Source of the DNA: Daejeonella sp.
Lineage (GTDB): Bacteria > Bacteroidota > Bacteroidia > Sphingobacteriales > Sphingobacteriaceae
DNA length: 54,686 nucleotides
NCBI RefSeq assembly: GCF_017495225.1
Contig: NZ_JAFEIG010000030.1
Location: 1-54,686, forward strand
Reading direction: 5' to 3'
Of this stretch, positions 20,018 through 20,511 are shown one piece after another (the stretch's first letter is position 1; every line of letters begins with the position of its first letter). The notes under the pieces are model-generated. The model saw only the letters and a program-made list of their open reading frames with translations, made no database searches and had not been told where the DNA came from. The position numbers were made by a program, and so were the translations under genes.

Positions 20018-20110
20018 GGAGAGGTGTCAGTCCGAAGGACTCCTTTGGAGAGTGGCCGAACGAGCGAGCTTGGAATTTCGTGTACTAGCGATGGTACCGT
20101 GGGTTCGAAT
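20018..20110 (+). pseudogene. Degenerate tRNA-Ser copy
   Basis: This stretch matches the intact tRNA-Ser at 20425 from its first base to the T-loop TTCGAAT. It carries a 20-bp insertion in the D arm (20031-20050), which is itself an almost perfect hairpin (TCCGAAGGA, C, TCCTTTGGA). The anticodon stem has GAATTTCG instead of GAAAGTTCG. After the T-loop the sequence diverges, so the 3' strands of the T stem and of the acceptor stem are missing. It cannot fold as a tRNA. It sits behind the only visible promoter and ends 20 bp before the GIY-YIG start codon. Confidence 0.88.
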
Positions 20111-20130
20111 TTGAGTTTTAAATATATGTA

Positions 20131-20376
20131 ATGATGTATTACAGCTATATTTTAAAGAGTGAGAAAGATGGGAAATTCTATTATGGAAGCACCCAAAATA
20201 TAGAAGAGAGATTAAAAAAACATAATAAAGGCGATGTGAAATCTACGAAAAACCGTAGACCACTGAAGCTTCACTTTATAGAACAACATGAATCTAGAAG
20301 CTTAGCTTTTAAAAGAGAACAGTTTTATAAATCAATTGATGGTTATATATTTTTAAAGAAACAGGAAATTATATAA
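20131..20376 (+). CDS. Small GIY-YIG family nuclease
   Basis: The 81-residue protein is a minimal GIY-YIG domain. The GIY strand is Y-S-Y-I-L (residues 4-8) and the YIG strand is Y-Y-G-S-T (17-21). The catalytic Arg is R27 in IEERLKKHN, and the metal-binding Glu is probably E63 in FKREQFYK. There is no DNA-binding extension, so it resembles the stand-alone UPF0213-type nucleases. It lies between a broken and an intact tRNA-Ser copy, an arrangement that suggests a homing-like insertion. The start may be either of two adjacent ATGs at 20131 and 20134. Confidence 0.88.
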   Translation: MMYYSYILKSEKDGKFYYGSTQNIEERLKKHNKGDVKSTKNRRPLKLHFIEQHESRSLAFKREQFYKSIDGYIFLKKQEII

Positions 20377-20424
20377 AAAAGATAAAACCTATTTAGAAGA
20401 ATTTATATCAAGGCCCAATAAATT

Positions 20425-20511
20425 GGAGAGGTGTCAGAGTGGCCGAACGAGCGAGCTTGGAAAGTTCGTGTACTAGCAATGGTACCGTGGGTTCGAATCC
20501 CACCCTCTCCG
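20425..20511 (+). tRNA. tRNA-Ser (anticodon GGA)
   Basis: The 87-nt gene folds into a class II tRNA. The acceptor stem is GGAGAGG with CCTCTCC, the anticodon stem is CGAGC with GTTCG around the loop TTGGAAA (anticodon GGA), the long variable arm pairs GTAC with GTAC, and the T arm is GTGGG-TTCGAAT-CCCAC. The discriminator is G, as expected for tRNA-Ser, and no complete CCA is encoded. It is followed by a terminator. It lies 48 bp after the GIY-YIG gene and seems to depend on the promoter at 19974. Confidence 0.96.

Follow-up and report, generated by a model that had tools for sequence, protein, structure and literature searches.

A stretch of 54,686 nucleotides from Daejeonella sp. (contig NZ_JAFEIG010000030.1; hereafter the window) carries a small GIY-YIG nuclease gene set between a broken and an intact copy of tRNA-Ser. 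We consider it probable (roughly 0.73) that this is a free-standing, homing-type nuclease gene that lives in a tRNA gene and supplies the missing part of the tRNA. Comparison of genomes revealed sites with and without the insert, a completed tRNA, two mirror-image layouts, a strand rule, tracking of tRNA identity by the nuclease, and purifying selection on the nuclease.

The unit lies on the plus strand and begins with the promoter-like site TTGACA-N9-TACTTTTG of the native tRNA-Ser gene (19974-19996), which is akin to a site in same-genus loci and which we take, from its consensus, to be a promoter of the Bacteroidetes type. The broken tRNA-Ser copy (20018-20110), delimited by alignment, comprises positions 1 to 74 of 88: positions 1 to 13 (20018-20030) are followed in the D-arm by a 20-bp hairpin, TCCGAAGGACTCCTTTGGAG (20031-20050; predicted fold, -9.6 kcal/mol), and positions 14 to 74 continue to 20110, where the copy ends after GTTCGAAT, without the 3' strands of the T-arm and acceptor. 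It is 95% identical to the intact copy over positions 12 to 74, and its hairpin sequence occurs once in the window, compared with 0 occurrences in 100 shuffles. The nuclease open reading frame (ORF; 20131-20376) starts 20 bp further on, and another 48 bp separate it from an intact tRNA-Ser(GGA) (20425-20512; ARAGORN, and Rfam tRNA at 46.7 bits), followed by a terminator-like hairpin (arms 20521-20533 and 20538-20550) with a T-rich tail (20521-20556 in all). An initial annotation, made from the sequence, had described this layout, and alignment, ARAGORN, Pfam, and Rfam confirm it. The order is more than chance, since it recurs across the phylum. The intact copy is the sole GGA serine tRNA found in the assembly (36 contigs, 98.6% complete), where the two other full-length serine tRNA matches have anticodons GCT and TGA, so that the cell apparently relies on this one, which lies downstream of the nuclease.

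The same site was compared within the genus by using the polyprenyl synthetase gene that adjoins the unit as a synteny anchor. Among 20 genomes of the genus, including that of the window, 18 yielded this gene, and the 18 loci comprise 10 empty ones, of the kind that the initial annotation would take as support, 2 occupied ones (L052, which is the window, and L053), 2 nuclease-less remnants, and 4 that are uninformative (L060, with a tRNA 1270 bp off on the other strand; L062 and L069, with too little sequence; and L068, with no tRNA). Each empty locus (L055 to L058, L061, and L063 to L067) has one intact tRNA-Ser(GGA) and lacks the nuclease; the distance between tRNA and synthetase gene is 580 bp in L063 and 780 bp in L064, and the L067 sequence ends 46 bp past the tRNA. 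A similar promoter and leader precede the broken copy in L053, L054, and L059 and the single tRNA in L056 to L058. The nuclease gene is present or absent at one conserved site among relatives, as free-standing homing endonuclease genes are. L054 and L059 have a broken and an intact tRNA copy without the nuclease. Two such copies were what the initial annotation had held to speak against its own proposal; these loci have that form, and in our judgement they are remnants left after loss of the nuclease. The intact tRNA of the window is identical to that of four empty loci (L056, L057, L058, and L064), and the tRNAs of the remaining empty loci differ from it by 2 to 10 bases or are a different allele (L055 and L065).

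Two side observations concern these empty loci. A 17-nt match to the tRNA 3' end lies further along in L057 and L058 and is possibly an old trace. In L055 and L065, the tRNA-Ser(GGA) allele by the synthetase gene clearly differs from the one in close relatives (the 37 mismatches counted without gaps overstate the difference because the lengths are unequal), and replacement of the tRNA gene is a possible explanation.

The association with tRNA genes extends across the phylum. Nuclease matches occur in 99 of 201 sampled genomes of the family (E ≤ 0.001) and, at E ≤ 1e-6, in 249 of 395 sampled across the phylum; this distribution is patchy, which we count in favor of homing. The best-scoring matches of both searches were fetched, giving 217 loci with a nuclease match and 204 distinct nuclease sequences, some loci being the same place in two search sets; the loci fetched for synteny and hairpins (L052 to L074) were excluded from the count that follows. 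As the initial annotation had anticipated, small GIY-YIG genes lie near tRNA genes elsewhere: in 183 of the 217 loci, no more than 500 bp separate the nuclease from the nearest intact tRNA, which is on the same strand as the nuclease in all 183 and on the opposite strand in 0 (L185 has an extra opposite-strand tRNA within 500 bp, which is not the nearest). These tRNAs represent 28 anticodon types and one undetermined. By comparison, none of 30 loci of uvrC, another gene with a GIY-YIG domain, had a tRNA within 500 bp; these loci were taken from those found in 61 genomes of the window's family only. A broken copy of the same tRNA was located within 700 bp in 154 of 165 distinct tRNA-linked loci when up to three nearest tRNAs per locus were tried, against 15 of 495 for tRNAs of another amino acid, where single random tRNAs were used. 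Named hosts include Pedobacter, Mucilaginibacter, Flavobacteriaceae, and Ignavibacteria, and the 20 named loci retained with broken copies belong to Bacteroidota (17), Ignavibacteriota (2), and Minisyncoccota (1); the search that gave them ran the Ser-type profile and mostly returned tRNA-Ser loci.

These counts bear on two simpler explanations. The consistent strand agreement, together with purifying selection on the nuclease, might be expected of a domesticated host gene that serves tRNA maturation or tRNA gene maintenance, the arrangement being an operon. We regard this as improbable given the same-genus sites without the nuclease, the many tRNA types, the dead copies, the tandem arrays described below, and the in-frame stops in 21 of 257 full-length nuclease matches. 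Tandem tRNA copies are common and were seen at some of our loci, so an ordinary tandem tRNA duplication with an unrelated gene caught between the copies was also considered; the occurrence of one nuclease family at 28 anticodon types, the uvrC control, and the one-sided loss of tRNA ends make it highly improbable.

That one-sided loss is evident from the geometry of the loci. Among the 154 loci with a broken copy, 150 could be sorted: 63 have the order broken copy, nuclease, intact copy, as in the window, 80 have the order intact copy, nuclease, broken copy, and 7 have another order. No upstream broken copy retains the 3' end (0/72), whereas downstream copies retain the 3' end in 79 of 97 cases and the 5' end in 3 of 97. 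One-sided end loss and mirror layouts would be expected if the element inserted inside the gene and delivered the missing part. The pattern suggests that a broken copy usually keeps the outer tRNA end without the inner one and that the element may bring the missing part, not a whole spare gene. The initial annotation had the insert bring a full tRNA copy; the restoration that it envisaged stands, and the retained outer ends suggest that the spare gene does not. In 143 of the 150 loci, in the two mirror layouts, the split gene is completed by the insert and its native end remains as a dead copy, as with the mobile endonuclease ORFs (mORFs) of fungal mitochondria. That the dead end is the native one was directly visible, from the leader, only at the site compared by synteny with the window's. 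The proposal of a homing-type gene in tRNA-Ser that leaves a complete tRNA is thus upheld by the empty sites beside the same gene and by the recurrence of the layout at many tRNA types.

Multiple units are also found. At least two long nuclease matches are present in 35 of 218 loci, and L032 (reversed, 1010-5610) has eight nuclease copies by tRNA-Val, seven of them at a 358-bp period, as well as 132-bp units without the nuclease that resemble non-autonomous derivatives. The window's own genome has a second unit (G000 contig 23, L002, 14144-14347, minus strand) with an intact tRNA-Asp and terminator, the nuclease, and a broken 3' tRNA-Asp copy that carries the hairpin CCCCAACTGTGTTGGGG. The single promoter that the initial annotation saw for the whole unit is plausible at the window locus, where no second Bacteroidetes-type promoter was seen by eye ahead of the intact tRNA. 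A sigma-70 scan, which was not made for this phylum, returned 3 sites compared with 2.4 in shuffles, one of them within the nuclease gene (20324-20351), and missed the TTGACA-N9-TACTTTTG site. A shared promoter is not general: in L002, L032, L037, and L098, inspected by eye, a terminator and, in some, a promoter-like site lie between the intact tRNA and the nuclease.

The following mechanism would account for this arrangement. The nuclease would cut the tRNA gene of a chromosome without the nuclease gene, and recombination repair would copy in the nuclease gene together with the tRNA part that completes the split gene. The result would be one complete tRNA beside the nuclease, with the displaced native part on the outer side as a dead copy. 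In the upstream type, to which the window's unit belongs, a broken native 5' part would be followed by the nuclease and by a completed tRNA with the native 3' end; in the downstream type, the completed tRNA would be followed by the nuclease and the dead native 3' part. The host would be spared because one complete tRNA remains. Dead copies would often gain hairpins and then decay, and units could expand in tandem. DNA cutting at the tRNA gene, spread driven by repair, and, at the window locus, expression from the tRNA promoter are steps that we infer from the sequences.

Homing would predict that nuclease lineages follow their target, and they do so. A tree was built from 192 nucleases after short matches, rows with more than one stop, and identical proteins had been dropped; 31 rows had no usable label, and parsimony was compared on the same 144 rows with 300 shuffles. 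The amino acid of the tRNA required 31 changes on the tree, against a shuffled mean of 88 (minimum, 82), and the host family required 57, against a shuffled mean of 93 (minimum, 86). Lineages of the nuclease keep to one tRNA amino acid more closely than to one host family, with occasional switches.

A few loci lie outside ordinary tRNA genes. In L089 (1127-1830), an intact tmRNA is followed 10 bp on by the nuclease and then by a 3' (T-arm) tmRNA copy with a hairpin at TTC^GAC. In L228 (reversed, nuclease at 1496-1723), a short 5' rfbB-like copy, the nuclease, and the full gene repeat the broken-nuclease-intact layout in a protein gene; by eye, a similar rfbB-like start is upstream of the nuclease in L132, near 2001. 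A cluster of nucleases without a tRNA (L171, L235, L191, L239, L189, L238, L173, L202, L220, L230, and L192) has close flanking inverted repeats of 13 to 17 bp with up to one mismatch, about TTCACCCCGTGAGATA, and some of the tRNA-less nucleases appear by eye, with no family search run, to interrupt four-helix (S23-like) or recombinase-like genes. Terminal repeats were tried and rejected as a rule for the tRNA-type nucleases, which reached an inverted-repeat score of at least 10 in 3 of 180 cases compared with 1 of 384 shuffled pairs; the tRNA-less group did so in 10 of 13.

The window nuclease has 81 amino acids and a Pfam GIY-YIG E value of 3.9e-15. Twelve residues are invariant across 36 nuclease sequences, including Y6, Y17, G19, R27, and E63, some of which are presumably catalytic, and the conserved Y, G, R, and E residues place the protein in the GIY-YIG superfamily by sequence. 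A structure model from the 36-sequence input has a mean pLDDT of 97.8. The closest relative, in L003, is 91% identical with a ratio of nonsynonymous to synonymous substitution rates (dN/dS) of 0.07, and dN/dS was 0.03 to 0.35 in the 14 of 19 chosen pairs for which it could be computed. The window nuclease consists of the catalytic domain alone and is under purifying selection. Family scans give weak matches to homing endonucleases, and a defense-system scan of the nuclease gave nothing beyond one weak homing-endonuclease match. The closest solved structures, by sequence and fold, are UPF0213 proteins and SLX1, with I-TevI weaker.

Hairpins such as that of the window are a frequent feature of the broken copies. 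An insert folding at -4 kcal/mol or better is present in 92 of 154 broken-copy loci, and 100 of 109 distinct inserts of at least 12 bases fold this well. Of the 59 exact insertions, which leave every tRNA base in place, 54 fall in loops or junctions, where 59% would be expected (P = 4e-8). Because these insertions are partly inherited together, reduced counts were also used, and the bias persisted with one count per anticodon and position (32/36; P = 1e-4) and with one per amino acid and position (21/25; P = 0.008). In upstream copies, exact hairpins are in the D loop in 25 of 42 cases and in the anticodon loop in 10; in downstream copies, they are in the T loop in 13 of 17, and 10 of these 13 are different hairpins at TTC^GA. 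Such palindromes are also dispersed outside the broken copies: when up to two mismatches are allowed, one of them has 1 to 25 copies per genome in 8 genomes, compared with 0 for a reversed-pattern control. As separate observations, the window hairpin recurs as inverted pairs within a longer repeat in L071 and L072 (G000 contigs 3 and 21), with no tRNA in the fetched stretch, and the hairpin of a broken tRNA-Ser(CGA) in L095 seems to be set in the loop of another hairpin.

The placement of the hairpins and the kinship with the structure-specific SLX1 raise the alternative of a structure-guided element, in which the substrate of a nuclease related to UPF0213 and SLX1 would be tRNA arms in hairpin or cruciform form, not a linear sequence, and the palindromes set exactly in tRNA loops would be the partner or product of that nuclease. 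The loop bias and the TTC^GA cases would fit. Nuclease lineages, however, track the tRNA amino acid, which suggests sequence recognition, two of the palindromes are found elsewhere in genomes without a nuclease nearby, and 62 of 154 loci have no hairpin insert; we consider this alternative unlikely. A broader form is doubtful: a mobile system acting on folded nucleic acid, in which an SLX1-like GIY-YIG family would target tRNA and tmRNA arms by structure and sequence, complete the invaded tRNA, and work with loop-inserting palindromes that disarm the displaced parts as targets or block recombination that deletes the nuclease. Loop-placed hairpins also leave the tRNA stems in place, as would suit a toxin-antidote system at the RNA level in which the tRNA itself would be the target of the nuclease and the hairpin-bearing broken copy would act as a decoy. 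The layout is instead what insertion into a gene would leave, related nucleases occur in tRNA-less regions, at least two of them inside apparent broken protein genes (by eye), and we know of no GIY-YIG toxin of a tRNA-cutting or decoy kind, so that this explanation is very improbable.

For the preferred homing-type gene, the hairpins may protect the element, may simply build up in dead copies, or may be mobilized together with the element. Three more specific roles were tried and rejected. If a hairpin were the fused ends of the nuclease element, the paired end motif (gap, 0 to 30) should recur, and it had 0 exact matches in 9 genomes; of the 11 matches to a single end motif in G343, 8 lie beside nuclease elements. 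A role of the hairpin in insulating the fold of the intact tRNA is not supported either, since folding of 496 nt with and without the hairpin gave nearly the same pairing; both equilibrium folds pair the intact 3' acceptor strand with the broken 5' strand, a predicted mispairing that, if anything, would be a problem for tRNA folding. One cut site for all lineages cannot be read from the hairpins because their positions differ (D, anticodon, variable, and T loops), even among Ser-type loci.

Several observations weigh against a homing-type gene. The main weakness is that the completed tRNA is identical to that of four empty loci, which leaves the carrier's escape from cutting unexplained; with the completed tRNA unchanged, protection must come from the flanks or another rule. 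The protein is a bare catalytic domain whose solved kin are UPF0213 and SLX1, which is structure specific, not I-TevI, and some full-length matches have the in-frame stops noted above. Exceptions exist at each level: 34 of 217 loci have no tRNA within 500 bp (15 of them lie at most 500 bp from where the fetched sequence stops, and one is at a tmRNA), 14 tRNA-less loci, some among those 15, cluster on the tree by tip order, 11 of 165 distinct tRNA-linked loci have no broken copy, and the 7 loci outside both layouts make up the rest of the 150 sorted. The phylum search was built on tRNA-linked members, as its profile (A1) came from 14 members that all have a tRNA nearby, and weaker GIY-YIG matches were hardly examined because only the best-scoring places were fetched; this selection and the non-independence of loci weigh a little on our confidence. 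As for a vehicle between cells, the phage relatives are 9 distant records, all under 60% identity, the plasmid relatives are 2 distant records, and a search of viral contigs for the nuclease confirmed none, so that a phage or plasmid vehicle was rejected.

No integrase or cargo, as a tRNA-targeting integrative element would have, lies between the broken and intact copies, where the nuclease is the only ORF of at least 50 amino acids (att repeats were not looked for), and a group I intron is not supported, since the tRNA alone reaches the Rfam gathering score in the window. The unit adjoins chromosomal genes. Further along, after a NUDIX-like gene, ORFs read by eye indicate a large helicase-like protein (21090-24482) with a phospholipase-D-like start and a LexA/S24-like end, which is possibly defense related.

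UPF0213 and SLX1 nucleases resemble the protein most closely, and neither, to our knowledge, is mobile. The T4 gene-60 bypass cassette is also said to show a likeness. The closest known strategies are those of SegB in phages and of the mitochondrial mORFs. SegB of T-even phages is a free-standing GIY-YIG nuclease co-localized with tRNAs of many isotypes, and it promotes segmental amplification of a tRNA region (PMC13096335, PMC2988022). It is phage borne and targets a tRNA intergenic region (PMC2988022, Table 1), whereas the genes described here are chromosomal (the window gene is not phage encoded, and the phage records are distant), the insertion splits and completes the tRNA gene itself, and it leaves dead parts that bear hairpins. 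In the mitochondria of Glomus and Allomyces, a gene invaded by a mobile endonuclease ORF receives a replacement end from it, and the native end stays behind downstream (PMC3630166). In the cases described in that source, these are protein genes of fungal mitochondria with the C-terminal end replaced, and three of the four Glomus mORFs are of the LAGLIDADG type, that of atp9 being GIY-YIG (PMC3630166); here, in contrast, bacterial tRNA genes are involved, with both 5' and 3' types. Free-standing and collaborative homing in T4 likewise involves free-standing nucleases and conserved target genes, and the consulted portion of the source describes no completed tRNA and no hairpin-bearing tRNA parts (PMC2988022). 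Among the papers listed by searches of the open-licence PubMed Central literature, none on chromosomal GIY-YIG genes in bacterial tRNA genes was seen.

If the proposed reading is true, a selfish gene is housed in the tRNA genes of many Bacteroidota, and essential tRNA genes can undergo repeated invasion and rebuilding while the cell survives. The family would then provide a natural set of small nucleases, each perhaps specific for one kind of tRNA gene. It would also offer a route for tRNA gene replacement between species, and the tRNA pseudogenes and arrays that it gives rise to would complicate annotation and assembly. How palindromes spread is a separate question, raised by the hairpins in tRNA loops.
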